A stretch of DNA of 64,000 nucleotides from Scytalidium lignicola. Taxonomy: Eukaryota; Ascomycota; Leotiomycetes. A program made the position numbers and the translations under genes. Below, piece by piece: positions 395-60,843 of the stretch. The stretch's first letter is position 1, and each line of letters begins with the position of its first letter. The stretch is from positions 1 through 64,000 of the forward strand of contig NCSJ02000100.1 in assembly GCA_002812745.2 (NCBI GenBank). The letters are read 5' to 3'. A model generated the notes under the pieces. It saw nothing but the letters and a program-made list of their open reading frames with translations, was not told the DNA's origin and searched no databases.

Positions 395-1644
395 TATGAA
401 GGACCAGACTGAGAAATTAAGACGGATGACTTCTTCACGGCAGAGATAAGACTGTTCTACTTATAATGTATTGCCAACATAGGGGTAACTTTACCTAAGT
501 CAACTGGGAAGCTAAATGGCGAACATTAAAGCTCCCTCCCCACATTTGGAGAAATTTTAGGGAAAAGATGATAGTCAAGCTGATATGATTAACAGAGACG
601 TAACTTAAAGGAGGAATGAAGTTTGTGACATTAATGACAGGAAGCTAAATTTATGAGGAAGTCAGGGAACGCTCGAAGGGCGTGTGAGGAGATACGCACC
701 ATCCCAATTTGTTTTAGCCCTCAAGAATCGGATCCCGGACCGAGATTCTTCGCCAATGGGGAATCAGATATCAGAACGAACTCTATCGTGGTAGATGCTG
801 ATCCTAAAATCGCTATGGTCCCATTATTCATACTTTACGTACCAGTGTATATGGAAGGTCACGGTGAAATAAGATATATGGCTTGGTTTTATGTTTTCCG
901 TTCCGTGGTAGAAGTGCTCGCTCACCCTTTTAGCAAGAAATACTACGGTGCCCAACTACAACTCTACAATATCGCATGGACGGTATATACTATATGACTT
1001 CGCGACCATTAAATTATTAAGCCCTATTAAATTAAAATTGCAAAAGAATTCACCTGTATCTGAATCTTTATATATTCTCTAGAGAATTTATGCCAAATGA
1101 AAACCCCCCCTCCAATAGTGACGGTATTATCACTTTTATCGGTAAACCAACCATGTTGCTCACAAATCGTGAGTGGGAAAGAAGGAATACACTCCCAGGA
1201 AGGCTAGTCTACACGATGATTTATCTATTGTCCATAGTATTCTATGTAAACCTGCAAAACTCAAATGCCGCTTTTTACTGGATTTACAATAACTTAATTT
1301 CATAGGTATATTTATATCAACAGGCATATCATCCTAACCACAACATCGATATGTTCATGTCAGCATACAACTCGAGTGCAACGTATGAAGAGGAGTGCTG
1401 GATGGGCCAACTCGCATTTGAAATTGAGCCGTTCATTGGTGGCAAGCGGCTTCCAGACTTAGCTACGGCGCCGCTCTTCCCGGTCCGCTCAACTTGACAG
1501 CAGTTTGTAGGCCCTGTACGTTGAGCTTGTCCTGTCCTGATAGAAACAGAGTTGTTTAAATCGAGGTAATCATATGCACTGATGGTATCACTAACTGTGA
1601 GTGACGTTTTTATTTATAGCGGCTTATGATCGAATACAACTATT
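395..1644. other. Gene-poor stretch and upstream region of the DUF1338 gene
   Basis: Two short open frames (653-997 and 1090-1305, + strand) have no recognisable domain and no convincing splice partners; I do not call them genes. CGGACCG is at 736-742 and CGGTCCG at 1481-1487, the latter about 160 bp before the DUF1338 start. Confidence 0.5.
1481..1487. promoter_or_regulatory. CGGTCCG motif upstream of the DUF1338 gene
   Basis: CGG-T-CCG is an inverted pair of CGG half-sites, the triplet that Zn2Cys6 factors recognise. The same 7-mer, in either orientation, occurs at 4384 and at 11514 and 11567 in promoters of the same putative pathway. That makes it a candidate operator for the Zn2Cys6 regulator at 6165-8831. 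Binding is inferred. Confidence 0.4.
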
Positions 1645-3096
1645 ATGGCGACTACAGTGACCACCGCAGTTACAATGACTACTGATCAGTACCTCTCTTC
1701 TGATGACATTCGGCATATGTTCTCGCAGGAAATGTCATATATATATCAAAAAGAGGTGCCTTTATATTCCAACCTTCTCTCGCTGGTTGCGGCTACCAAT
1801 AAATCCGTTACGGCAAATGACCCTGCTCTGGAGGCCCGTTTAAAAGCTACTGGCCAGATTGAGCGCCTCAATTGCGAACGTCATGGAGCCATACGCCTTG
1901 GAACGGCAGATGAGATAAGAACAATGGCCCGGTTCTTAAACGTAATGGGCATGCGATCTGTTGGTTACTACGACTTATCACAAGCTGGCTTACCTGTCCA
2001 TGCTACCTGCTTTCGATGTTTGGACCTCAGCTCATTAGAGAAGAACCCCTTTCGGCTCTTCGTTTCACTTCTCCGCCCAGATCTAATCTCGCCTTCTATC
2101 CGCTCTAAAGTCTACGACATCCTTTCTCGACGGCACATCTTCCACCCCCATGTCCTCGAACTCATTTCTATCGCGGAGGAAACAAACAATCAGCTCACGC
2201 CATCACAAGCTTCTGAATTTGTCACCTATGGCCTCGAAACTTTCAAGTGGCGGCAGACTGCCAACGTCACATTTGATGAATACTCTGAACTCTATTCTGA
2301 AAATCCCCTGCTTGCAGATGTGGCAGGATTTGAAGGGCCTCACATCAACCATCTCACCCCTAGGACCTTGGACATTGACGCTATCCAAGCGGCAATGGTC
2401 GCACAGGACATCCCCACAAAAGACACAATCGAAGGGCCACCACGGCGGCAATGTCCAATTCTGCTCCGACAAACAAGTTTCAAGGCATTAGAAGAGGCCG
2501 TCTATTTCCCTCCTTCAATCTCATCTTCCTTCTCAGAGAACGCGATTCTCGGATCCCACAGAGCCCGCTTCGGAGAAATCGAAGAGCGTGGCATAGCCTT
2601 GACACCAAATGGTCGGGCTCTATACGATCGACTCATTCAAAAGGCGATCGCTGCTAGAATCACACCACAGAACACGCGGGAATATGCCGCTATATTCTCA
2701 GAATTCCCCGATGACTGGAATGAGATTCGCAAGGCAGGTCTGGCTTGGTTCGAGTACTATGTTGCAGACCCAGCAGAATTAAGGGCTGTTCTTCAGGATG
2801 CTGCATGTTCATGCGAGCCAAGGGGTCGCTCAATTGAAGATCTAATTGAACTCGATGCCATACGCTTTAAGCCTTTGATATATGAAGATTTTTTGCCTCT
2901 ATCCGCAGCAGGTATATTCCAGAGTAATCTTGGCGGTCCTAGCAAGACGGTAGTTGGTGCCCACGCGGAGAAGAAAGTAGATGGGCGACGTCAGTTGCAA
3001 ATGGCGCTGCAAACTGATATTGTGAACGAAATGGACGTTTACAAAAGGCTACAGGAGGAGAGTCTGGAGACTTGTCGGAAGTACTTTGCACTATAA
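1645..3096 (+). CDS. DUF1338 / HglS-like 2-oxoadipate dioxygenase/decarboxylase
   Basis: Single-exon gene for a 483-residue protein of the DUF1338 (YdcJ/HglS) family, whose characterised bacterial member converts 2-oxoadipate to D-2-hydroxyglutarate with loss of CO2. Visible hallmarks are CERHGAIRLG (His80), FRLFVSLLRPDLI (136-148), INHLTPR (His236) and an acidic EIEERGIALTPNGRALY segment (311-327). The His80-His236 spacing equals that I recall for the metal ligands His70 and His226 of Pseudomonas HglS, and the third ligand, a Glu, should lie in the acidic segment. Length is normal for the family. Its neighbours produce 2-oxoadipate-type C6 diacids from 3-hydroxyanthranilate, so it would act last in the route. 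Substrate is inferred from family and context; the family call is strong. Confidence 0.85.
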   Translation: MATTVTTAVTMTTDQYLSSDDIRHMFSQEMSYIYQKEVPLYSNLLSLVAATNKSVTANDPALEARLKATGQIERLNCERHGAIRLGTADEIRTMARFLNVMGMRSVGYYDLSQAGLPVHATCFRCLDLSSLEKNPFRLFVSLLRPDLISPSIRSKVYDILSRRHIFHPHVLELISIAEETNNQLTPSQASEFVTYGLETFKWRQTANVTFDEYSELYSENPLLADVAGFEGPHINHLTPRTLDIDAIQAAMVAQDIPTKDTIEGPPRRQCPILLRQTSFKALEEAVYFPPSISSSFSENAILGSHRARFGEIEERGIALTPNGRALYDRLIQKAIAARITPQNTREYAAIFSEFPDDWNEIRKAGLAWFEYYVADPAELRAVLQDAACSCEPRGRSIEDLIELDAIRFKPLIYEDFLPLSAAGIFQSNLGGPSKTVVGAHAEKKVDGRRQLQMALQTDIVNEMDVYKRLQEESLETCRKYFAL

Positions 3097-3543
3097 ATGT
3101 TTGAAATTGCCAATTTATGTTTCTTCAATCGGATGGGGTTTATAATTTATATGGGGTATACCTAAATATAAGCTTGAGCTAATTCACTCATAGACCAGCT
3201 AAATCCACTCACCGACTCCAGTGCTGGTCTGCATCCTTGTGTATTTAAGTATACCCTTTATATAGTATATATAATTCCTGAATGTAATTCTTAAGGAGAT
3301 GTAATTACTAGGAAATTAATAATGCTGTTATGCAAATGGAGAAGTGTAAATTAGAGACTTTCACTTCAGTCAGTTCCTTACTTGTAGAACCATCAAGTTA
3401 ATTATAAGATAGCACTGAGACAGTACAACATCGTAGTGGAGGCCAATTATGNTTTTTTCACGAGAAAAAAAACATAGCCCCTCTCAACTACATGTCAGTT
3501 TTTGAACTATAATGCTTTCGACTATTTCCAATATACAGTCCCT

Positions 3544-4242
3544 TTACATCGGATCTTCCACCTTCCCACATTCTGGGCAGACTCTAAGTTCCTCATTCGT
3601 CATCCACCTTTCTATCAAGGGATCTAATTGCGTTTCTAGATCCTCGCAGTAAAATACATCTTCCCTAATCATCACTGGGTGCTCGTGATTGCTCTTTGAA
3701 CAGTACCATTGCAGTCGATCTTGGCTTCCCGGCGGGCGTGTTCTTTCCATCACAAGCCCAAAAGTGTCCTTATAGCGGATTGGCGAATGGGGCGTGTTGC
3801 CTTGCAACGTGTTAACTAGACCTTCTGAGATAAAAGGAGAGAGCGGTGTTGTAGGGCGAAGTAGGTCAATTGAGGAGTTGCAACTTACCAGGTACTAGGA
3901 ACATCTCACCCTCCTTTAACTCAATATCGCGGATTTTGTTGTTCTCCACGAGTCGCAACTTCATGCTGCCCTTGATTTGGTAGAACCACTCCTCGGTTTG
4001 ATTCACTATTTTGTGCTGTTAATATCTAGAGTATGTTTTACATTGACATGCACTCCTGCATTTTAATAAGTCGACATACGATGAAAGTCATTTCTGGTGT
4101 TCGGCCCCCCGACAACCATCAATATGAAGTCCTTTCCAGAATATATGCAGCGGTTACTGACTGGTGGTTTCAGTGTACCACCATTCTCACCAAGCCATGA
4201 TGCGAAAGCGAGGGGTAGTTGCATTTCCGTAGATGAAGCCAT
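3544..4242 (-). CDS. BNA1: 3-hydroxyanthranilate 3,4-dioxygenase
   Basis: Three exons: 4242-4080, 4005-3889 and 3800-3544, giving 178 residues, the usual length of fungal 3-HAO. The enzyme is a cytosolic Fe(II) cupin that opens the ring of 3-hydroxyanthranilate to 2-amino-3-carboxymuconate semialdehyde. The iron ligands and substrate residues are visible after splicing: Arg50 and His54 in RNDFHLNQTEEWFYQ, Glu60, and His98 in PGNTPHSPIRY. A CPECGK motif lies near the C-terminus. The first acceptor was chosen as ...AAAATAG because only it restores DFHLNQTEE. It is divergent from the ACMSD gene across 350 bp. Since 3-HAO normally serves NAD synthesis, this clustered copy is probably a dedicated catabolic paralogue; whether another copy exists elsewhere cannot be seen here. 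Confidence 0.93.
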
Positions 4243-4592
4243 TGAAACGAATGCCACTTCTGGAGAACCTGTGAACTGGGCACAAGTAGTTATGAACTTC
4301 AATGCTGTAGCCCGCCATTCAACCGTATTACATATTGCTGATATTCGAGGTGCTGGGGCCTACCGGTGATTACATGGAGCTTACGGTCCGGGCGATGAAG
4401 AAGCGGGCCGCATCCGATCGATTCGACTTCCTTACCATGATTACTGGGGAGGCTCGGTACATGCAAGAAATGAGTGAGAGAAACGGAGTGCTATATGCCG
4501 AATGTGGTAGTGTGATATTAAATAGTTATCTTCACAGGATTCGCTGACTTTTATTATCATATTTTTACGTTGTAGTAACTCGAAGTCGTGGA
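4243..4592. promoter_or_regulatory. Divergent promoter between 3-HAO and ACMSD genes
   Basis: A 350-bp intergenic region shared by two head-to-head genes of consecutive steps. It contains CGGTCCG at 4384-4390, followed closely by CGGGCCGCATCCG, so several CGG/CCG half-sites lie together. Open frames through it are not supported by any domain. Confidence 0.55.
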
Positions 4593-5890
4593 ATGTCACC
4601 ATCTCGAGATACGGACTGCTGCTGCCAGCACGGCATCTCAAGCAACTTGAAGCCACAAGATGGCCGTTTCAATAATGGCAAGTTACAGGGAACCTCGTTA
4701 TATCGTATCGATATGCACACGCACATAATGCCCTCGTCTCTCCCCAATCTCTCGTCCTTTACTACCGACGGTTACCAATCTCCCTGGCTGGAAGCGCGGC
4801 CTTCAAAATCTGGGCCCGATGGAGCAGTGGATTTGTATGTCGGATCGACTTTCTTTAGAACTGTCAAGCCAAATTGTCTTGATGCCTCTGTACGATTGGC
4901 TGAGATGGATGCTGCGGGCGTAGATGTCCAGGTGTTGAGCACGCTGCCCATATTATTTTTCTACGAAGAAGCCGCTGAACCCGTAACAATGCTTGCGCGA
5001 GAACTCAACAATCACATTGCGGGAATTTGTCATGATTACCCAGACCGATTTGTTGGATTAGCAACAGTTCCCTTGCCGGACGTCACTGCGTCTGTTGAGG
5101 AACTGAAGCGGGCAAAGTTTGAGCTTGGGTTGAACGGGGTGGAAATTGGCACTACAATCGGAGACAGGAATCTCGACGATCCAGCACTGGAGCCATTTTG
5201 GCGGGCATGCGAGGAATTAAACTTTCCAGTCTTTATACACCCCCTTGGGTATTCCCTCGATCGAGAAAACAGGGCAAGGTGGGGGAAGTACTGGGCGTCC
5301 TGGCTGGTTGGGATGTAAGTTTTGATACCTGAAAATCTTGCAAGGAGGTAGCTGCTAACCACATTGTCTTCAGGCCGTGCGAGACTGCCCTTGCAATGCA
5401 TGCGATTACATCGTCCGGTCTTCTTCTCAACTTCCCCAATCTTCGACTGTGCTTTGCACATGCTGGTGGTGCATTTCCATCCTTGATTGGCAGGATTCAG
5501 CACGGCTTCGACTGCCGTCCTGATCTGGTGGCAAGGGATGCTGGAGGACGGACCCCTACGGAGCATCTAAAATCGGGGAAGAACCTGTGGATTGATAGCC
5601 TGGTTCACGACCCAGATATGCTGGAATATCTGTGTAAGAAGATTGGATCAGATCGCATCGTCATGGGAAGTGATTATCCTTTCCCTCTAGGAGAGGTGCC
5701 TGAAGCTGGAAGAATGTTAGCTTCAGAGGACCAACTGTCAAGTTTTCTGAGCTGGAAAGAACGCGCTTACATGCTGGCAGGAAACGCAATCGATTTCTTA
5801 GGGTTGGATGAGAGGTTCCGGCACCGGTTTGAGTGTAGGCTGAATGAATTTCTGGAACGTAACAACGTGAAAACAAAGGCTTGCCTCTAA
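4593..5890 (+). CDS. 2-amino-3-carboxymuconate-6-semialdehyde decarboxylase (ACMSD)
   Basis: Amidohydrolase-superfamily decarboxylase that diverts ACMS away from quinolinate/NAD and towards 2-aminomuconate semialdehyde. Two exons, 4593-5314 and 5374-5890; the junction rebuilds [13 protein letters not shown], as expected for ACMSD. Metal-binding His42 and His44 lie in [10 protein letters not shown], a further His in FAHAGGAFP and the conserved Asp in [11 protein letters not shown]. The predicted 412 residues exceed the ~335 of animal ACMSD, partly because ~40 residues precede RIDMHTH. The start at 4593 is the first in-frame ATG, but an upstream exon or a shorter start is possible. It shares a divergent promoter with the 3-HAO gene, whose product is its substrate. 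Confidence 0.92.
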
Positions 5891-6164
5891 ATTTACACAG
5901 CATTAGAAGGAGTTGTCATGTTATACATAATATATACTGTACATTATTTGTTTGCAATGCGTTCTATAACTGCTCATGTTTATAGTTTTCATAGAGTAAT
6001 AATAGTATTATCATTCTCTAATACTTCATAACTAAAAGCCGGTGTTGTGTTCGTCTCTCATGAGTCTCAGCTCTACTGTGAGCATTCCCGCGCCATTCAA
6101 ACCAACACATCACCATACTTATTATATACAGTATTCAACACAACACCTTCTTAACTCTTCTTCG

Positions 6165-8831
6165 TCAGAAAAACATGCCCTGATCGCCGACTGCCCAAGG
6201 CTGGGGATTCGGCATCATCAGATCACCCGGAGCAAAATCTAGATCCAAGTCGGAAATCAACATGTCGTTGTCCATTGTGAACCCCTGCGGCATGGCAGTA
6301 GTGCATACGCCGAAGCCATCATGAAATGTCGGATCGCAATCTATTTCACTTGGCCATGAATGCACATCCGGCTGCGTCCTGAGGGTATCTCTCAGGCGGA
6401 CCGCGGGTTTTAGCATAGATGGTAGACTTGGCATGCCGGTGTAGCCAAGTCTTCTCTCTGCGTTCATCTCGTGTGAGAAACCTCGATACGCACTCGTGTT
6501 ACCCCGATGAGTGGGGCTCGAGTCAGCACGTATCTGTCTCTTGGGAGGCCGCTCAGCAGGTGATTCCTGCGGCGTGATCTGGCCTTCTGACGACCTTGGT
6601 GCACGCTTCTTTGAGCTGATCGAACGACTTGGGCCCTCCGTAAGGTGGCCAAAGTTGCAGACGCCTTTCTTGTAATCCCCTTGCAGCACTTGAAGGGTCA
6701 AGTCGAGGTACTCCTCCACGATGCCTTTGCATTTCCGCGCCCCTTTCCATGAAGATTCCAAACTTTGAAGAGTTTGCAGGGCCATTTCCACGTCATGCAG
6801 GGCAATGTCGGTATACATTTGGTCATTAGACCCTCTAATACACTGCATCAAAACGATCGCGCCAACGAAGACATTCTGGCCGTGAAGCACATGATAATGG
6901 CCGGCGGGAACGCTTCGCAGAAAATCCGATGACCCGTGGATGCAGTCTGTGGCGGCTTTGGCGCACCGTATTTGAGCCTGGGAGCTCTCCAGCGGAGACT
7001 GCCTATGTGGATGGGGCATGAAAACTCGATGGAGGAGAATTACGGCGGAATAGTAGGAGGAGAGAGAGATGTGTCTTTCCGCCAGCATGGTGCCGGTTGT
7101 TGCTGTCTTAATCTGCTTAGGGACGCGATACTTTGCCCATTTCTGCAGGTTCAGATTTGACTCTCTCACTCTAGATCGAAGCTCTTCATACTTCTCGACC
7201 GATCTCCACTCGTTGGCGTTCTTGACAGAGTTGACAGTCTTCAAGATGCCACCTAGAATCGTATGCAGATGGATAAAAGATTCAAACCCTGTAAGTTGGG
7301 CGTTTTTTGAACTATCCGTCAGCTCGCTGGGTAGCTCTACGTCGCAGTCGCTATCGTCAATCGCTAATGGTCGTCCAAGTGCGATGCTAAGCTGTCTTTC
7401 AAGAATGTAAAGACACCACCAGATAAAACGTCGTTTGTTTCTTTCTTCCGACGGAAGGCGGAGTCTCTCTGGTGACCGCTACCATGATTTTAGCAGTGTT
7501 TGCAGTCGGATTTAAGGGTAACTTACGTGAAGGCCAACATCTTGTCCGAGTCTTATAGCTCTTCCAATCATGATCCAAGCATCCGCCTGGCTTCCTGTCT
7601 CAGAGAGATACATGCTGAGCAGTCCGAATGCCACGATTTGTTCTTGCAATATGCCCCTCCTATCTGACTTGATTCTTTGTGACAGATTCAAGAAATGGAT
7701 CGCCTGGGTGTAAAAATGAGAGCCGATGTTTTCATAAGAGTACTTCTCGTCTATGTCATTGAAGACGGCGTGTCTTTGAGGAATCAGCGGCGCTGCAACA
7801 GCCATGACGGCAGAAAATATGCCTGCGACCCCGGCATCGAAGTTGTCGCATCCTAGAAGCTCGTCGTAAAGCACAAGCACATCGGACTTGGAAATGATTG
7901 GGAATATGAAATATACCTGTTCGACGTAGGTCTCAATCAGAATATCCACCAGCGTTTGAGGTGGCAGCTGCTGCCTCAGACTATTGTCCAACGGCTGGGG
8001 TGGTACTTCGACGTCAATAACAGCGGCAGGACTCGTGAGGAACGGTTCTCCGATATCGTAGCCTTTCTTCTTCAGGCCTGTGTTGATATGTTGACGTAAT
8101 CCTATACAACGGTCGACGATCGATGCCGTTGACCCTAATCCAACATACCTGAGTTGCCCATTGATGTCAGGATCCAGTTCACCAAATCCGTCAGCGTAGC
8201 AATGTCGATAGGAAACCTCATCCTTTACTAATGTCTGAGACTCTTCTTCGGCTCCGCGTGCCCTTTCATGCTCGTTATCCTCATCCTCCAAAAAACCGCT
8301 GGCGGCAGAGCTTGCGATAAGAGCGTCTGGCTGGGCTGTAATAGATGCGCCGTCCTCAGTATCGCCTGGAGTTGCTAGCGCAGGAGAATCCTTTCTTGCT
8401 GCGAGGCTGTCTCGCAACTCGCCAGATTTGAGCTCCTGCAGAAACTGCCGGAATGTTTCCTCCATAGACGCAACCCGGCCTTCAAGTTTCTCCATGTTGC
8501 TTCACAACAGTTAACCATGGCTGCTAGAGACAGGGCCTCCTGCTTCAGATAACCCAGACGAGGCAGACGCGGGGTGGGAAACCTACTATAGGCTTGGATT
8601 TCGAGCAGATGAGCTGGCAAAATCTACGTACGTACAGCTCGAGCCATAGCTCCGACATCTCTGGCAAGGTTCCTCCCCATTGCACTTGATCTTCTTCTTA
8701 CGGCATCCTTCACACGCCCGGCGAATTCTTTGTCTGTCTTGAGGAGGATAATTGATGTTTGACTGCGCTATGGGTCTGGATCGCGAGTTGTCTGCTTTCC
8801 TTGAAAGTGGCAGCAAATTGGGGGCAGACAT
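6165..8831 (-). CDS. Zn2Cys6 transcription factor, likely regulator of the cluster
   Basis: Three exons (8831-8632, 8499-7527, 7478-6165) join in frame to 828 residues. The zinc cluster occupies residues 40-66: [11 protein letters not shown], then [11 protein letters not shown]. It is followed directly by a predicted coiled-coil starter ([13 protein letters not shown]). The middle region around [30 protein letters not shown] and DCDVELPSE is typical of the fungal-specific transcription factor domain (Fungal_trans). It sits in the centre of the catabolic cluster, tail to tail with ACMSD and divergent from the reductase gene. That position makes it the natural candidate for pathway-specific control, probably by a pathway intermediate. 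The target motif is unknown; CGG(A/T)CCG is proposed elsewhere in this annotation. Confidence 0.85.
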
Positions 8832-9533
8832 CCCAACCGCCGGGAGTCCAGTGTCATTCGCAAGGACGGGTGGTATATTACAAGTGTGATTGAAATTGTA
8901 CTGATCTCTGTATACAGCACCGATGATGTGTTTTGTTGAAGAATACTGCCTCCTGCAAATCCCAAATCCAGGTTGTTTTGTGAGGAAAAGAAACTCGGAA
9001 TTGTTATCAGAGGTGGAAAAGGTGGTGAATTCCCTAACTAGGATACTTCTCCGAGAAATGCACTAACTTAGTTCCCCTAACTGAATGAAGCTTCAACGCC
9101 ATGACAGAGACCAATTCCCTATCTCATTATAATTCACTTACGGTAAATCCTTCCGCCTCGTATTATTCCCTCTTTCCTAAGTGGCGAGAATGCCTCGGAA
9201 CTGGCTTGCCACCAATCAACGAGTCGACTTCCTTCTCCGCAGTTCAGCACATAGGCGAATTTAAGATTCGAGTCATATTATTGCCGTCGATTATTTTATA
9301 CTTCGCGTCGTGTACTGTACCGCTACTCTTTTCTGGGCGGATATTACAGGCGGAAGACGCTCCGCAAACCTCAACGGAGACTGGACCTTCTCCACGCACG
9401 AACGGGGCTGGCTTGAAGCTTCAAGAACGGTTTATAGCTCGTTCTAGTGCCCTGCTTCAATTATGGTGGTACTAACTACCCTTTCTACCTCATCGCTACC
9501 TCCCATCTCCTGCTTCACGTGACCGACCTCAGC
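8832..9533. promoter_or_regulatory. Divergent region between the Zn2Cys6 regulator and the reductase gene
   Basis: About 700 bp upstream of both genes. No CGG(A/T)CCG was found here, but a CGG-N8-CCG arrangement is at 9351-9364. Short open frames on both strands have no recognisable domain. Confidence 0.45.
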
Positions 9534-10514
9534 ATGCGCGGCGTGACCATCCCAGAGTATGGAGACTCTTCCGTGCTGACGCTGAAGAGCGATCTTCCTG
9601 AGCCGGTGCCTAAAGATTCGGAAATCGTTATAAAGCTTGAATTCGCTGGGGTCAATTTCGTCGACACATATCAGAGAACGGGATTGTATCCAATACCGCT
9701 ACCATGCATTGCTGGCCGAGAGGGCGCGGGCACCATCACAGGCATAGGGCCTCGCGTTCCACCTGAATACGGACTCCAGGTTGGCGACAAGGCCGCTGTT
9801 TTCTCCCAGGGCACCATGGCCGAGTTCGTGGCTGCTGACGCCAAGGGCATTCTCAAGCTACCATCGCAACTCTCGACCAAAGAGGGCGCCGCGATCATGC
9901 TACAAGGCCTCACTGCGTGGACACTTGTCAAAGACGCCTACGAGGTCAAGCGTGGTGACTGGATCTTGGTCCAGGCCGCGGCTGGCGGGACTGGCGGCCT
10001 GGTTGTGCAAATGGCCAAACATCTCGGCGNCAATGTCATTGGAACGACCTCGTCCCCCGAGAAAGCCTCCGTTGCGAAAGCGCACGGGTGCGATTTTGTC
10101 ATCAATCATACTACGTTTAATGTTGAGGAGGAGGTCATGAATCTTACTCAGGGTCGAGGGTGCCATGCCGTGTTTTCAGGCATCGGCCAGGCTACATTCG
10201 TTGCGGATCTGGCTTGCACAAGGAGAAAAGGGACGCTGGTCACGTATGGGAATTCAAGTGGACCTGTCCAGAGTGTAAAACCTCTGGATCTGAGCAAAAA
10301 GAATGTAAAACTGGTACGGCCTACGCTGGCAAACTACATTACGGAAAGAGAAGAGTTTGCTCTCAGGGGGAAAGAGTTGCTAGATCTTGTAGTTAGGGGC
10401 ATTGTGAAGGTCGGCTATGGTGGCGTATATGACCTGGAAGATGTAGGAAAAGCACAGGATGATCTGGTTGGCAAGAAGACCACCGGAAAGTTGGTTGTTA
10501 AAATCTCTTCATAA
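9534..10514 (+). CDS. Quinone-oxidoreductase-like MDR reductase
   Basis: A 326-residue zinc-free medium-chain dehydrogenase/reductase of the zeta-crystallin/QOR group. The start at 9534 (MRGVTIPEYG) matches the family; the frame is open further upstream but carries no domain. Hallmarks: FAGVNFVDTYQRTGLYP, PCIAGREGAGTI, and the NADPH-binding AAAGGTGGLVVQMAKHLG. The C-terminus GKTTGKLVV-type ending (KKTTGKLVVKI) is also typical. One N (10030) falls inside a codon after HLG and does not break the frame. Placed between the pathway regulator and the aminomuconate enzymes, it is a candidate for the C=C reduction needed to turn an oxo-hexenedioate or aminomuconate into 2-oxoadipate. That role is inferred; a generic quinone reductase is the alternative. 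Confidence 0.87.
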   Translation: MRGVTIPEYGDSSVLTLKSDLPEPVPKDSEIVIKLEFAGVNFVDTYQRTGLYPIPLPCIAGREGAGTITGIGPRVPPEYGLQVGDKAAVFSQGTMAEFVAADAKGILKLPSQLSTKEGAAIMLQGLTAWTLVKDAYEVKRGDWILVQAAAGGTGGLVVQMAKHLGXNVIGTTSSPEKASVAKAHGCDFVINHTTFNVEEEVMNLTQGRGCHAVFSGIGQATFVADLACTRRKGTLVTYGNSSGPVQSVKPLDLSKKNVKLVRPTLANYITEREEFALRGKELLDLVVRGIVKVGYGGVYDLEDVGKAQDDLVGKKTTGKLVVKISS

Positions 10515-10837
10515 CTGCACGCAAATATACTAGGTATTAAATAGGTGAAGGTAATATATTACACAGCATATATGTAAGCGCGCATCCAATGAGCAACTGC
10601 GCTAGGTTTCGCATTCTCATTCGGTAATTCAATAAACTCAAGCTAAGCATTTTATTAGATTATTAGATGAGTGCAAGAGGTATATTCAGAAAATCAAGGC
10701 TATGTGGTCATATAGTAGAGATCTAGACCACGCCCCTTTCGCGTGAAGGACGGCCAGAACCCAATATCAGGTAATCGGGCAATGCCACCACTTGATTCTC
10801 CCACCACATCCCATCATTAAAATCATTGGATCCTCAT

Positions 10838-11293
10838 TCAATTCACCTGAACCATCGCCATGCACTTGATCTCGATACAGAGCCTCTCGTTCGGAAGTGC
10901 CGCAACCTGTACGCATGTCCTCGCCGGCGCCTTCTTCTTATCCGGCCAGACCTTGTTCCACTCCGCATTCATTGCCGCGTAGTCCTTCATGTTAGTCAAG
11001 AACACCGTCGCATCCACGATGCTTTCCAGGCCGCATTTCCCATCTGTAGCCCCTGATATCACCGTCGAGATGTTCTGCAGCACGGCAGCGGTCTGTTCCG
11101 CAACATCGAGGGTGTATGTGGCGTCTGGGGCAGTAATACAGCCTGCGTAGGTCCCGTCACTGCGGCGGGATGAGATCCCCGAAACGTAGATCATCTGGGC
11201 AGTTGCGGGAATGGTACGAGCGTGGGGATAGTTCGCCAGCCCCTGTGCTCCTGTGGGAGGGAGAAAGTAATCGGTTCCATTTGAAGAGGCCAT
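10838..11293 (-). CDS. 2-aminomuconate deaminase (RidA/YjgF family)
   Basis: Single exon, 151 residues. RidA-fold enzymes are small trimeric enamine/imine deaminases. The segment VSGISSRRSDGTYAG closely resembles the SGTSSRRPDNT motif that separates bacterial 2-aminomuconate deaminases (AmnD/NbaF type) from ordinary RidA. The active-site arginine region is PARTCVQVAALP, near residues 122-133. Expected reaction: 2-aminomuconate plus water to 4-oxalocrotonate (2-hydroxymuconate) plus ammonia. It is head to head with the semialdehyde dehydrogenase gene that would make its substrate. The family call is strong and the substrate call is supported by both motif and neighbours. Confidence 0.88.
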   Translation of the reverse strand: MASSNGTDYFLPPTGAQGLANYPHARTIPATAQMIYVSGISSRRSDGTYAGCITAPDATYTLDVAEQTAAVLQNISTVISGATDGKCGLESIVDATVFLTNMKDYAAMNAEWNKVWPDKKKAPARTCVQVAALPNERLCIEIKCMAMVQVN

Positions 11294-11789
11294 TATTGGA
11301 AAGGGGCAAGTCAGAGAGGCTATCTGACTTCGGACGGATGTAGTTTTTTTTTTGATCAGCGTTGGAATTGGCAGATTGGCGGTGTATGGGACACTCCCGT
11401 AAGTACAGCGAGTTCATCCAGGAATTAATGAATACATGGAATTTGGCAATGCTGCATTGCACTTTTACTATCTAGCTATCTACCTATCTATTACAGATGT
11501 ACTACTTAAAGTTCGGTCCGCGACTAGCAGACGTTACTCGTTGATGGAAGCAGCTATCTCGGATCTCGGACCGGCCAGATCGGGTATCATCAAGTACCAG
11601 ACTGACCGTCGGATCCATTCCCGAATCAGGGGAGCTTCCAGGCCACAAGCTCTATCGAGCTACACACAGTACTTTAATTCTACAACATTGATATGCGCAA
11701 TAAATAAACTAGCTTATAAGAATTATGCTGTTCGGTATCATCTAGAAGGATATACCCCATTTCCCCTCAGATCGAATTTTGCGCAAGTT
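11294..11789. promoter_or_regulatory. Divergent promoter between deaminase and semialdehyde dehydrogenase genes
   Basis: A 496-bp head-to-head intergenic region. It holds two copies of the candidate operator: CGGTCCG at 11514-11520 and its reverse complement CGGACCG at 11567-11573, 53 bp apart. A T tract is at 11346-11353. TATC-type short repeats are at 11468-11490. Confidence 0.55.
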
Positions 11790-13481
11790 ATGGCAACAAC
11801 CGCGACGGATGCCAAGGTTGGGATCTCTGATATCCGGAGCCTTGACACTCTTCCCAAGGCCGAAGCATTTCTTCACGGCTCAAACAGCCCCCGTATAGTG
11901 ATATCCAATTTTATCTCTAATTCCTTCACCCCGCATTCGTCCTCCGACTACATCGACTCCTTTGATCCCAAGACCGGAAATGCGTACGCTCGAGTCCCCA
12001 TCAGCAGCGCCTCAGAGGTCGAGGATGCGATCACTTCAGCTGCAGAAGCTTTCAAGAGCTGGTGTAAAACTAGCCGGGGGGTGCGCTCCAAATACCTGCA
12101 ACGAATTGCACAGTTGATTCAGGAGAACAGAGAGCTCCTGGCTGTCTGGGAGAGTATTGACCAAGGCAAGACTCTGGAAAGAGCGAGGATAGAGGTCGAT
12201 CGTGCCATCTCGAATTTCTCGTACGTGACCACCTAGCCAGTGCTTTTGGGTGTCCTTCCGAATAACCATATTGTCAGGTACTTTTCAACATACATCTTGC
12301 ACGAAGAGACTGCGGCGCGCATGGTGGACGGTGTGGCTCTGTCATACGAGCACCGATCGCCTGCAGGTGTATTCGCACTGATTTCTCCCTGGAACATGCC
12401 CTTGTATCTTCTCACCTGGAAGATCGCGCCTTGTATAGCGTTTGGTTGTACAGCCGTCGCAAAACCGAGTGAGGTGACAAGCATGTCTGCTTTCTGTAAG
12501 TCCTCTCCAGTTTCTCACATGCATTGGTTAATTCAGGCTGACATCGCCAAGTACTTGCAGATATCATCCGCCAGGCTGAATTGCCTAGTGGAGTCGTCAA
12601 CATGGTCTTCGGTAACGGTGCTATTACAGGTTCGGCACAGGTTAAGAGCCAGCGGATCGCTGGTGTCAGCTTCACCGGTGGTACTGCGACAGGTATACAA
12701 ATACGGAAGGATACGGTAGCAGACATCTCCAAGCATCTTTCTCTGGAGCTAGGTGGCAAGAATCCGACGCTTGTATTTGATGATGTTGACCTCGAGAAAG
12801 CCGTTCCCCTTGCTGCTCGAGCAGCTTTTGAGAACCAAGGAGAAGTTTGTGGTGGTTTCCATGCTTCACCGTCATTGCACTTTGTTAACGAAAGAGCAGA
12901 TTTGTCTTTGTGGCTCAAGGATCTATGTACAGAAGCGNATCTACGATGAGTTTGTCTTGGCGTTCAAGCAATTTGTCGCAAAGAATTACAAGTGCAAGGA
13001 GAGCATCGGGGCAGTGGTCTCTCTGCCGCATTATCAGAAGATTCGATCCTACCTTACGTTAGCGGAACGGGAAGGCGCTACATTTGAGCTGGGCTCAATA
13101 CCAAACGAAACCCCTGATGGCGGGTATTGGATCGACCCGACAGTTCTTACCGGCATCTCGACTTCTAGCATTGTCATGAGAGAGGAAATATTTGGGCCGG
13201 TGGTCACGATAGCAACATTCGAGACAGAGGAAGATGCTATCAACTTAGCCAATGACAACCCCAACGGGCTTGCCAGCATCCTCTTGACCAGAGATGGAGC
13301 TAGGATGAGACGAGTAGGCGAGCAGCTGGAAGCAGGTCTGGTCTGGGTGAACTGCTGGCTGGTGAGGGAGTTGGGAACTCCATTTGGGGGAATGAAGAAT
13401 TCGGGTACGGGTAGAGAAGGCGGCGCCTACAGCAGAGATATATTTACGCATGTTCGTACGCTCCATATTCCAGATGTGTAA
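11790..13481 (+). CDS. 2-aminomuconate semialdehyde dehydrogenase (ALDH8A1-like)
   Basis: Four exons, 11790-12220, 12278-12495, 12561-12844 and 12900-13481, give 504 residues, a normal ALDH length. Rebuilt motifs include [47 protein letters not shown] and the catalytic-cysteine segment [14 protein letters not shown], created by the third splice. The GEICLC and SRIYVQ wording is that of ALDH8A1 (2-aminomuconic semialdehyde dehydrogenase) and related bacterial AmnC/NbaE enzymes. EEIFGPVV and [15 protein letters not shown] complete the pattern. It would oxidise 2-aminomuconate semialdehyde, the ACMSD product, to 2-aminomuconate with NAD+. One N (12938) lies at a third codon position in QK(R)IYDE and is harmless. 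Confidence 0.92.
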
Positions 13482-14273
13482 ATCATCTTATATTATGAAA
13501 TAGCCAAAGTGCCGAGACTCTGATCGCTCATAAACTCCTTTATAAACTTAACGGTTTGGGTAATGCTAAATCGACTTCTTCTTTTTTCGTCTATTCAGTT
13601 GTAGTCTTATAAAAGGCCCCAGATTCATCGTCAAATAAACTAGCCCAATACTTAATACTAGAGTAAATTTATATCGATACTTTTATTTATGAGTTATTAT
13701 GGGCCATTATTGCAGAGATATTGTAAATCTTAAATTTAACATTAACTATAAATATTAATCCTTTAAAAAATNAAAAATATATAGTTAAATAGACTGAAAN
13801 TTTTAATTATTTAAATTAAAAATTAAAAAATNATTATTATTATTATTATTAAAATTGTAAGGGGGTCATTTTTGTAGTAAAATCGACCTTTTTTTTTTTT
13901 GAATGATTACTACAAAGAACCAACAATTCTGTACTAAAATTTTATTAGATAATGTAGAATATTTATACTAAAACTATTCATATTTAAAAAATTAGGTCAA
14001 TTAACCTTATGATCGTAGAGTTATTTAAGTCCAAAAATCACAGATTTGTATGTAAAATGGGTGTCGATCAGGGGGGGGTGTCGGTTAGACGAGGTAGGGG
14101 CTTACTAATCGACACTGAACTATGGCTTCTGAATCTTGCAAGGACAGCGATCAGACCCAAGCACCACCCTCCAAATTCGTAGTTGTCAAGGTTTACGATC
14201 CTAAAGGAGAACTGACATTGCATCGTCTCTCTTCCTCCATCCCTTTCACATTCATTAAGCTTGTCTAACAAAC
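13482..14273. other. AT-rich spacer after the catabolic cluster
   Basis: From about 13500 to 14050 the sequence is dominated by A/T runs such as ATTATTATTATT and AAATTAAAAATTAAAAAAT, with three N calls inside homopolymers. No gene or RNA signal was seen. It marks the right border of the catabolic cluster and looks like RIP-degraded or low-complexity DNA. Confidence 0.6.
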
Positions 14274-57110: not shown

Positions 57111-60100
57111 ATGACTAATCAAGATGCTCACATTGTCATTATTGGACAGGAGCGGACTAGGGGACTTTCGTGGACGGTTGAGGTCCGGTGCGGGCAATTT
57201 GAGGCTGAGTATGCAAAATGTAAGCTTGGTCGTTGCCTCTTCCTTCTAGGCATATCGAATATTGACAACTTCTAGTTACCGATCCTTCCTTCGGAATGAA
57301 AGCCATAACTGAAGAAGATTTAAGATGGTACCTTGAGGATTATGCGCCTAAATATCCTTACGATATCACTCGGGCATCGCAAGTGGAGGTAGATTTGATG
57401 ACATATGGACAGACTCTGGTCGACAGCTTTCAAGTCTTGTCCATTGAGATGGTCAGGCTAGTTGTGAGAATTTCCTAGTTTCGTTTGTCCACTAGCGCAA
57501 TGCCTATCGAAGAACTGACTTGTGTACATAGCTGTCGTCCTATAAAAACGAAGATGAGCCTATAGTCATCGATGTGTTGGACAACGAGTGTCCTTCTTTA
57601 TTACAAGCTATCCATTGGGAAGTTCTCGAGAGCGCAGCTTCTTGGAATCCAGAAGCATCCGGCCATGCCAACGTACTTGTTCGGCGCAAAATCGTTTCGT
57701 CTTTTCCTCGACTAGTGCCTACAGACCTGTCCAGCAGGAAGAAACCAACATTCAATATTCTTCTTGTCAATTCCAGGCCAAACAAAGTCAAAGACATAAA
57801 TCCCCTTCTTGGTATACGAGGTATTATCGAAACTCTGAGCAAACTGGAACCTCGCTTGAGAGATACGATCAATTTCGAGATCGTCAGACCGGGAACCTGG
57901 TCTGCTTTTGAAGATCATCTCATTTTCCGAACCAATCAATGGCATCAATCCGGCGGCACCGGCCCATGGTTTGATATTGTCCATTTCGACGTCCATGGTG
58001 AAATCGTTGAAGGGAATTCTCATCTTATTTTTCTTTCGAAAGGCGGTAAAAGTGCCCTGGCGGTCAGCGCCAGCACTATGGCTCAACTGCTTCGACATTG
58101 CAAGATTGAAAGTGTTTTCATCAACTCTTGCTTATCCGCGAAAGCACTCGGGTTCGACACCTCTAACCTAGCTGAATTCTTGATACGCAACGGCATTCGA
58201 TCAGCCATTGCAATGTCCTTCGCCTTCACCAGCAGCGCAGCAAAACGACTGATCACAAACTTTTATTCAATTTACCTCCTGGATCCTTTAAAGAATATGG
58301 ATAAAGCCTTGAAGTACAGTCGTGATGCTCTACAGACAAATATGGAACGAGAGGCAACATTCGGCTTGAAGGTACATGTGAAGGACTTCATAATTCCAGT
58401 TCTGTATATAGATCATCATTGGAAGAATGAATATATTGTGCCAGAAGTAAGCTTAGAACCGCCGGATCCCGATTCATACACCATGAACGCAGCACCTCAG
58501 CCATCTATAGTTCGTGTGTTGGCTCAGAACGATTTAGAAACACAACTGCAGTCTAATCATGCCAACTTTGGTGGCCGAGAGCAAGATATCATGGAGATTG
58601 AAGCGCTTCTGCTAAGGAATGCCAAAAGTAACATTTTGGTTCTCCATGGTATGGCAGGAGCTGGAAAATCAGCGCTCATCCAATTTCTGGGTTGGTGGTG
58701 GGGTATTACGGAGCTTGTTCAAAATACAATATATTACAGCCTTGCACCGGATCTCATCACGCAAGAGCATGAAATTCCGAAAGAACTAGTATCTGTCGAC
58801 GGATTATACTTTCAAAATGAACTTTACCGCTATCTCCAGCAGCAACGGCGTCTGTTCATTATTGATGACTTTGACGCAATGTTACACCCCAGATTCACCA
58901 AAGATCGAGAGGTCTCATATACAGATATCCAGAAAGAGCAGCTCAGAAACTTCATATCTCGGCTTCGTGGCGGTCGGTCACTCGTCATTTTGGTCTCGCG
59001 ATGTAAGCATGACTGGCTAAACTTGGGAATCCGCGCACAATACTGTCTTCGAGAGCTTGCTCATTACGATTCGACATTGTTAGCTTCATCATGTCTCCGT
59101 GACCTGAATTTGTCTCATATGCTCGAGAACAGAGAAAACACAGTGTATTTGGGGCACTTTGTCGCCTATGTCGATCATAATCCACAGGCCATCCTAACAT
59201 TTCTTCGAGTTCTAAAAGAGGACCAACAAATTTCGAACCCGAGAAAGCTTCTCGAAACCCTTCAAACGGGCTTCGTTACTCTCAGTCCATCATATGAGCG
59301 ACAAATGTGCATGTTGTTCATCAGGAGATTGAAATTAACTCCTGGCTTGAATGGTATGCTCCTTCACGGTTTGGCGCCGTTATGGTCAACCTTCACGGAG
59401 GATTGGTTTGAGTCTCTTTCCGAAAGTCTAAAGCAAGAAAAGCCGACAGTAGCTCCATCGAAAAACGAAGTGTTGGAATTTTTCGTCTCAAATGCAGTTG
59501 ATACTGGATGGCTCGAAATAGAGGGCGAAAGTGCTGCCCGAAAGACGGTGTTCCGAATCGACCCTATTCTCTCGAACCTACTTAGGGAGACGATATCTTG
59601 GGGGGAAGATCACAATCCGGTAAAGAAGTGGGAAGCGGTATGCACTTCCACGACTGCAATATATCATTGGTTTCAGCTTCAAAACATGACCACCCAAGAT
59701 ATTGCAACACCTACACTGGAGCCTGTAATACAGCATGAAATCTCGAATTACCTCTATGCCTTGGGCGTTTGTCTATACCTCATGCCTTATCAGCCAACCT
59801 TCACAGATGCCGGCTATCAGATATTCTTCGAACTCTGGTCGATAGCAACCACTGGAAACAACCTGCTCCTTCCAGTTCCTTCCATGCTAACCTACGGAGA
59901 TCAATTCATGAATAACCTTCTAGAGAGCCATGGCGACTTAAATAATATGAATGAACACGAAATGGCATACTTCTTTCAACTAAGCACTATGATTTGCCGG
60001 TACCTGGTACGTCGGCAGCCTACGCGTGCAGCATCATACTTGGAGCCAATTGTGAAGACTTTCCCAAAATTGGAGGCGATTATAGTTGAAAAGGTCCCAC

Positions 60101-60843
60101 AAACGGAGATTCTATATTCGTTTACTCTTTTGAGCTTGGGAGCGGTTGCTATGTACAAAGACAGAGATGTGGAGAAGGCTGAGGAATACTTTCTCAAAGT
60201 AGCTAGTCAGGCTACCCTTGCTGACAACGATTCGAACCCCGAATTGGCAATTAAGAGAAGGTGGTTGGAAATGAACGCATACTTAAGCCTACAGGAACTG
60301 TATATGAACAATGAGAAACAACTAGATCGAAGGGGGAAAATAAGAGAAGCAGCAAAAGATGCATTCAAGAAGTACAAGAAACTCGTCTCAACGTCCTCAT
60401 CGGATCGAACGAAAACCTTGGCGCTGGGCTACGTTCCAGCCGCTCTCGTTGAGTGGGCGATGACATCACCCCAGGACCCACAAATATCGTCTCTACTGTC
60501 CCTCTCCGAGCAAGGAGCGGAGACCGCAGGCTTGTTAAAAGTTGCCCCTATGCTCGGTGAGGCCTCTCGACTTCTTAAAAATGGGAAGACCGCCGAGGCA
60601 CGCCAGGTTCTGCTTGAGGCTGTTAGTCAAGCTATGTCAGCTGAAGACAAAGAAGCTGAATACCCTTGTCAGTTAAATCTGGCAATAATAGCTTCGCAAG
60701 AGGGCAACATTGCAGCAGCAGATCTTCACCTGCGTCGACTGAAAATCCTTGAAGAAGAACTGCATGGAGGAGCTTATGTGCCCCTGTCTAGTCTCAAGGT
60801 TGTCTCTGCGGCAAAGGCTTCTGTGCTGGAAGTAAACATATAG
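57111..60843 (+). CDS. CHAT protease-like domain fused to a STAND-type P-loop NTPase (NLR-like)
   Basis: Three exons, 57111-57219, 57276-57463 and 57532-60843, give 1202 residues. The splices restore EYAKFTDPSFGMKAITEEDLRWYLEDY. Residues ~175-390 are a CHAT (caspase-HetF-associated) domain with the His of VHFDVHGE (~254) and Cys of FINSCLSAKALG (~299) as the expected catalytic dyad. Then come NFGGREQDIMEIEALL, a Walker A motif HGMAGAGKSALIQ (~472-484), a Walker B-like RRLFIIDDFDAML (~540) and SLVILVSR. The C-terminal ~500 residues are helical, possibly degenerate TPR (EKAEEYFLKVASQATL). Fungal proteins with protease-NTPase-repeat order act as NLR-like sensors in incompatibility and cell death. 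The partner at 55505 is the obvious candidate target. Confidence 0.88.

Follow-up and report, generated by a model that had tools for sequence, protein, structure and literature searches.

The catabolism of 3-hydroxyanthranilate in Ascomycota has been described by Martins et al. (2021; PMC7842363), who reported a gene cluster encoding 3-hydroxyanthranilate 3,4-dioxygenase (3HAO), ACMSD, AMSDH, and a putative deaminase, and who found the A. terreus cluster to be up-regulated on salicylate. The later steps are left open in that paper, where both a reduction to 2-oxoadipate and a decarboxylation (with hydration) are discussed as options; none of the words DUF1338, HglS, hydroxyglutarate, quinone, and Zn2Cys6 occurs in its main text. 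The pathway is counted among the known fungal ones in FAMeDB (2026; PMC13094099), whose main text contains none of the terms aminomuconate, hydroxyglutarate, 2-oxoadipate, DUF1338, HglS, and quinone. Here, we analyzed a stretch of 64,000 nucleotides from Scytalidium lignicola (assembly GCA_002812745.2, contig NCSJ02000100.1, positions 1 to 64,000 of the forward strand), referred to as the window, which carries a cluster of seven genes combining the published gene set with an HglS-type 2-oxoadipate dioxygenase/decarboxylase (HGLS), a quinone reductase (QOR)-like medium-chain reductase (MDR), and a Zn2Cys6 regulator.

This locus is probably an inducible fungal catabolic cluster, which would convert 3-hydroxyanthranilate to 2-oxoadipate and then to D-2-hydroxyglutarate by a route free of coenzyme A (CoA). 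By gene families, the window cluster shows the grouping of 3HAO, ACMSD, AMSDH, and a RidA-type protein found in the published Ascomycota cluster, and its core appears to be a further member of it, while the end formed by HglS and the MDR appears to be new, with good genomic support. The first-pass annotation of this DNA had presented the entire clustered lower branch of the kynurenine pathway as new in fungi: this does not hold for the 3HAO, ACMSD, AMSDH, and RidA genes, already in print (PMC7842363), but it does for the extension by HglS and the MDR. In a literature search covering few subscription papers and no preprints, we found nothing linking HglS or DUF1338 to the fungal 3-hydroxyanthranilate pathway, and a search for "2-aminomuconate reductase" returned no paper.

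The seven adjacent genes announced by that annotation at 1645..13481 are borne out by the predicted gene models, each of which has an open (where needed, spliced) frame; the eight introns, at predicted splice sites, are all of the GT..AG type and 48 to 132 bases long. The genes were also said to lie in chemical order, which is not the case: HGLS (+) comes first and is followed by three divergent pairs, namely 3HAO (−) with ACMSD (+), the regulator (−) with the MDR (+), and RidA (−) with the aldehyde dehydrogenase (ALDH; +). The single X in the MDR translation is caused by an N at 10030.

Predicted genes of the cluster and CGGNCCG sites in its promoters (window positions)
Feature	Position	Strand	Remarks
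HglS-type 2-oxoadipate dioxygenase/decarboxylase, predicted (HGLS; DUF1338, PF07063)	1645..3096	+	single exon, 483 aa
3-Hydroxyanthranilate 3,4-dioxygenase, predicted (3HAO)	3544..4242	-	three exons, 4080-4242, 3889-4005, 3544-3800; 178 aa; stop at 3544
ACMSD, predicted	4593..5890	+	spliced gene model; nearest solved structure 2wm1
Zn2Cys6 regulator, predicted	6165..8831	-	three exons, 8632-8831, 7527-8499, 6165-7478; 828 aa
QOR-like medium-chain reductase (MDR), proposed 2-oxo-3-hexenedioate reductase	9534..10514	+	single exon, 326 aa
RidA-family protein, proposed 2-aminomuconate deaminase	10838..11293	-	single exon, 151 aa
AMSDH-like ALDH, predicted	11790..13481	+	four exons, 11790-12220, 12278-12495, 12552-12844, 12900-13481; 507 aa
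CGGNCCG x2 (736, 1481)	736..1487		upstream of HGLS; 736 is ~900 bases before the start codon, outside the shuffle-tested stretch
CGGNCCG x2 (4384, 4404)	4243..4592		between 3HAO and ACMSD; suggestive only
CGGNCCG x2 (11514, 11567)	11294..11789		between RidA and ALDH; suggestive only

The prediction that HGLS is an HglS-type 2-oxoadipate dioxygenase/decarboxylase is strongly supported. The protein scores 468.6 bits against the Pfam family HGLS (cut-off, 25), narrowly passes the NCBIfam equivalog NF049974 (558.2 bits; cut-off, 550), and aligns over nearly its full length with the solved HglS 6w1g (419.7 bits). Counted by hand on the latter alignment, H70, R74, H226, and E294 of HglS correspond to H80, R84, H236, and E311 of the cluster protein, whereas V402 is replaced by L419 and S403 is retained as S420. 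With His70, His226, and Glu294 taken by us to be the numbering of the metal triad, both the HHE triad and the substrate arginine are present in the alignment. Thompson et al. (2020; PMC7286885) described this triad, the role of Arg74 in substrate binding, and residues Val402 and Ser403; all triad-bearing fungal proteins examined in their paper keep the arginine, and what these proteins do is left open there; among the 2-oxoacids assayed there, HglS was active on 2-oxoadipate only.

The predictions for 3HAO, ACMSD, and the ALDH are also strongly supported, by families or solved structures. Of two curated models, the 3HAO passes TIGR03037 (187.8 bits; cut-off, 145.95) and falls short of PRK13264 (204 bits; cut-off, 220); it matches both yeast-type and bacterial enzymes and has 1zvf as its best solved match. 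When it was aligned with five other sequences, no variation was seen in the columns which we take to hold the iron ligands. In its last exon (window 3544-3800, minus strand), however, it has WYCSKS in place of the WYCxxC of these five, and it would therefore lack one cysteine of what is presumably the C-terminal metal site. ACMSD matched none of the NCBIfam models, and the comparison with solved structures returned 13 ACMSD sequences at 268.5 to 187 bits, with 2wm1 at the top, against 90.6 bits for the best entry otherwise named, so that within its superfamily the proven ACMSDs are closer to it than decarboxylases of other kinds. The ALDH finds AMSDH 4i1w as its best solved match, at the top of 57 sequences with E ≤ 1e-80, and remains below the cut-off of the model for bacterial 2-hydroxymuconic semialdehyde dehydrogenase, TIGR03216 (416.5 bits; cut-off, 693.25). 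The catalytic Cys302 and the substrate-binding Arg120 and Arg464 of AMSDH (PMC4286809) correspond, by hand count on the 4i1w alignment, to C316, R138, and R470 of the cluster protein.

The two remaining enzyme calls of the first-pass annotation, RidA and the MDR, are weakly supported as to substrate. RidA matches PF01042 at 78.1 bits, and its best solved match, first of 44, is the 2-aminomuconate deaminase 6izh at 53.5 bits, followed by the next entry at 42.9 bits, so that it is nearer to the proven deaminase than to other RidA proteins by a small margin. The MDR, whose best solved match is Qor 4rvs (224.5 bits), does not reach the cut-offs of the QOR and PIG3 quinone reductase models (205.1 bits with a cut-off of 348, and 166.2 bits with a cut-off of 296.8); it may still act as a QOR-type enone reductase. 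Exon 1 of the regulator encodes a Zn_clus domain (PF00172; 36.8 bits), and exons 2 and 3 encode a Fungal_trans domain (PF04082); the protein would be expected to control the cluster. Among 175 two-half-site patterns tried on four promoters, CGGNCCG occurs at five sites in three of the four, a result reached by 0 of 1000 shuffles for CGGNCCG itself and, after correction for the 175 patterns, by 21 of 1000 shuffles with some pattern. The whole window holds nine copies, which does not exceed chance (as many are present in 10 of 100 shuffles); six of the nine lie upstream of cluster genes. This gathering is suggestive of CGGNCCG being a possible Zn2Cys6 site; a literature search on the motif gave nothing useful.

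The linkage of HGLS, MDR, and RidA recurs elsewhere, as judged from contig sizes and locus tags. The lists of the 120 best protein hits of each were compared by the size given for the longest contig of every hit, and an identical size in separate lists was read as one contig held in common; as it should, the window's own contig (131,624 bases) turned up for both HGLS and RidA. Considering sizes of at least 5 kb, seven are shared by HGLS and MDR, seven by HGLS and RidA (one of them the window's own), and nine by MDR and RidA, whereas a control with sizes offset by 1 to 500 gave a mean of 0.06 to 0.07 shared sizes and a largest count of 2. Three sizes, 19,557, 19,244, and 452,132, are present in all three lists, the last belonging to Pleurostoma richardsiae. 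In Pestalotiopsis fici, the locus tags of HGLS (PFICI_02119) and RidA (PFICI_02122) are three apart, and in Neoarthrinium moseri those of the MDR (JX265_002280) and RidA (JX265_002279) are adjacent. Of three matches below 5 kb, those of 1,697 and 1,301 bases were taken as chance, since they are too short for both genes, while the one of 2,091 bases (MDR and RidA) could hold both. A lack of clustering in relatives, named at first pass as one outcome that would speak against the cluster, was thus not observed for these three genes, whose shared contigs lie far above the offset control. In the HGLS tree, the contig-linked rows are scattered over the fungal part (nine changes; 75 of 500 shuffles are as low), which indicates that the linked HGLS proteins are not a clade, and none of the bacterial rows included was linked; the row of a second S. 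lignicola copy, on contig C610, was placed in the wrong frame and its position is void. The residues distinguishing contig-linked MDRs from other QORs were tabulated from hand-picked sets of 11 and 9 rows, with one "linked" row (P0125) on a contig too small for both genes.

The S. lignicola assembly (46.85 Mb, 664 contigs) contains three HGLS matches, of which the cluster copy appears to be the only whole one. The C610 copy has a frame broken near position 3180 of its locus (L006), with the two matched halves in different frames and no room for an intron, possibly through an assembly error; among the open reading frames (ORFs) of 9 kb around it, judged by eye, no pathway gene was recognised. 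The match on contig C155 (L007) is fragmentary and contains stops. No second copy of the whole cluster was found in this genome: ACMSD has a single close match, the others being at most 32% identical, and other 3HAO-like matches lie on contigs C599, C49, and C9, whose neighbourhoods were not searched singly. The entry into the kynurenine pathway would be provided by IDO-like genes, for which five contigs gave a match, with strong ones on C127, C55, and C646; FAD-linked oxidases, a family which we take to include D-2-hydroxyglutarate dehydrogenases, match on eight. On contig C125, relatives of MDR, ALDH, and an ACMSD-like amidohydrolase lie within ~18 kb (about 21 to 39 kb), perhaps as another aromatic catabolic cluster.

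Together, the predicted enzymes outline a path from the aromatic ring to the tricarboxylic acid cycle. 3HAO would open the ring of 3-hydroxyanthranilate, and ACMSD would remove CO2 before the ring-opened product closes to quinolinate; the ALDH would then oxidize 2-aminomuconate semialdehyde to 2-aminomuconate, from which RidA would remove ammonia to give 2-hydroxymuconate or 2-oxo-3-hexenedioate. The last steps would presumably follow in the order of reduction of the C=C bond by the MDR, giving 2-oxoadipate, and conversion of 2-oxoadipate and O2 to D-2-hydroxyglutarate and CO2 by HglS, with a D-2-hydroxyglutarate dehydrogenase encoded elsewhere supplying 2-oxoglutarate. Such a CoA-free path would replace the decarboxylase, hydratase, and aldolase of the bacterial route. 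The first-pass interpretation is supported in part; the pathway that it put forward, from 3-hydroxyanthranilate through 2-aminomuconate and 2-oxoadipate to D-2-hydroxyglutarate, fits these genes best.

Several points weigh against the proposed route. Its weakest step is the reduction by the MDR, whose matches to 22 NCBIfam models all fall under the respective cut-offs, so that its substrate had to be guessed from the context, and the match of RidA to the true deaminase reaches only the 53.5 bits mentioned above. Among the HGLS relatives of ranks 2 to 41, only 10 of 40 could be tied to an MDR or RidA gene and 30 gave no link, and seven of the shared HGLS sizes are those of contigs longer than 100 kb, where sharing does not prove nearness. 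The promoter between the regulator and the MDR has no CGGNCCG sites. Finally, a RidA gene is missing from the A. terreus cluster, and the main text of PMC7842363 names no HglS or quinone reductase, so these genes may not be obligatory.

The alternative that survives best, although we regard it as unlikely, leaves all other steps in place and denies RidA the role of deaminase: 2-aminomuconate would lose its ammonia spontaneously, or 2-aminomuconate itself would be the substrate of the MDR, as has been suggested for the mammalian reductase activity. The non-enzymatic deamination cited in PMC7842363, like the lack of a clustered RidA gene in A. terreus, fits this view. However, RidA and MDR relatives share nine contig sizes of at least 5 kb, and RidA has a 2-aminomuconate deaminase as its closest solved structure, both of which speak against this alternative.

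There is little likelihood that the core stops at 2-hydroxymuconate and is continued by decarboxylation and cleavage in the bacterial manner, with HGLS and MDR being neighbours that serve other roles (lysine catabolism and quinone reduction). Decarboxylation with hydration is one option named in PMC7842363, and it is the route suggested by bacterial gene content. We compared 84 bacterial 3HAO-like loci, namely the best 80 of at least 575 confirmed matches and 4 plasmid loci hand-chosen from 60 listed (22 of the 84 are shorter than 15 kb). With score thresholds that we set ourselves, and a decarboxylase query that also reaches the related hydratase, ACMSD was found in 47 loci, a 4-oxalocrotonate decarboxylase-like gene in 36, including 28 of the 47 with ACMSD, and the aldolase in 24, while none of the 84 has HglS near the 3HAO-like gene. 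The other 19 ACMSD-bearing loci showed no decarboxylase, and a look at 14 of them gave no clear replacement; the 37 loci without ACMSD may in part not be 3-hydroxyanthranilate operons and may have another substrate. In three of the plasmid loci, 3HAO is accompanied by RidA, an amidohydrolase, 2-hydroxymuconic semialdehyde dehydrogenase, and lower meta-route genes. The fourth, a Rhizobium plasmid locus (L070) without ACMSD, has none of this set, and its 3HAO-like gene lies by genes for aspartate dehydrogenase, dihydrodipicolinate synthase, and a semialdehyde dehydrogenase. Neither 4-oxalocrotonate decarboxylase nor 4-hydroxy-2-oxovalerate aldolase is encoded by the seven cluster genes, and the bacterial aldolase and decarboxylase queries had no match in the S. 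lignicola genome, in a search without a positive control whose queries did match the bacterial loci. Also against this reading, the contig sizes that HGLS and MDR relatives have in common with RidA relatives far outnumber those of the offset control.

Fungal lysine synthesis runs through 2-oxoadipate, and a route correct up to this compound might mainly feed lysine biosynthesis or glutaryl-CoA with HglS as an overflow valve, but this is improbable, as the clustering of HGLS suggests that 2-oxoadipate removal is the normal fate. The activity of HglS on 2-oxoadipate alone among the assayed 2-oxoacids (PMC7286885) was counted for this option, and the down-regulation of a predicted glutaryl-CoA dehydrogenase gene in A. 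terreus on salicylate (PMC7842363) against it.

The first base of the window is the start of the 131,624-base contig, so that the cluster may extend further left. The flanks were scanned against Pfam with 19 ORFs, namely 17 of the 20 ORFs of at least 170 aa to the right, a shorter one on the same side, and the ORF at 104-460. Eleven of the 19 had a match, and no obvious pathway member was recognised, although genes built only of shorter exons would escape such a scan. Those scanned include an SDR at 27.7 kb, a TauD-type dioxygenase at 33.3 kb, and a sugar-type transporter at 53.4 kb. At the right border of the cluster, the stretch 13600-14050 is very AT-rich and contains three N. Further right, a single frame of 1103 aa at 57532-60843 (plus strand) combines a CHAT domain with a weak match to NB-ARC, and may encode a fungal NLR-like protein.

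The cluster offers candidate genes for the steps that Martins et al. (2021) left open, and it would extend the role of HglS, a known enzyme of lysine catabolism in bacteria and plants, to the breakdown of aromatic compounds. If the proposed route is true, the MDR is the gene for the 2-oxo-3-hexenedioate or 2-aminomuconate reductase step, and tryptophan rings flow to 2-oxoglutarate; since fungi make lysine via 2-oxoadipate, a cross-link between tryptophan breakdown and lysine supply is also predicted.

We lean toward the view that fungi have a CoA-free lower 2-aminomuconate pathway of their own, with a dedicated QOR-like reductase and a clustered HglS, unlike the bacterial and mammalian routes. 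With the mammalian kynurenine branch, the proposed route would share 2-amino-3-carboxymuconate semialdehyde (ACMS), 2-aminomuconate semialdehyde, 2-aminomuconate, and 2-oxoadipate, from which mammals continue through glutaryl-CoA. The bacterial 3-hydroxyanthranilate operons, which we take to be those called nba-type, have 3HAO, an ACMSD-type amidohydrolase, RidA, and a semialdehyde dehydrogenase in common with the fungal cluster; beyond these, three of the plasmid loci carry genes for a hydratase or a member of the fumarylacetoacetate hydrolase family, for an aldolase, and for an acetaldehyde dehydrogenase, and one of them has an annotated 4-oxalocrotonate decarboxylase. The fungal cluster thus retains the upper enzymes, and a reductase and HglS take the place of the decarboxylase, hydratase, and aldolase seen in many bacterial loci. 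The HglS of Thompson et al. (PMC7286885) belongs to the same family as the cluster HGLS and has the same metal residues and substrate arginine, but it is tied to lysine catabolism, whereas the cluster enzyme is proposed to finish the catabolism of the tryptophan ring. The closest system is the Ascomycota 3-hydroxyanthranilate cluster of Martins et al. (PMC7842363), with which the S. lignicola locus shares clustered genes for 3HAO, ACMSD, AMSDH, and a RidA-type putative deaminase.

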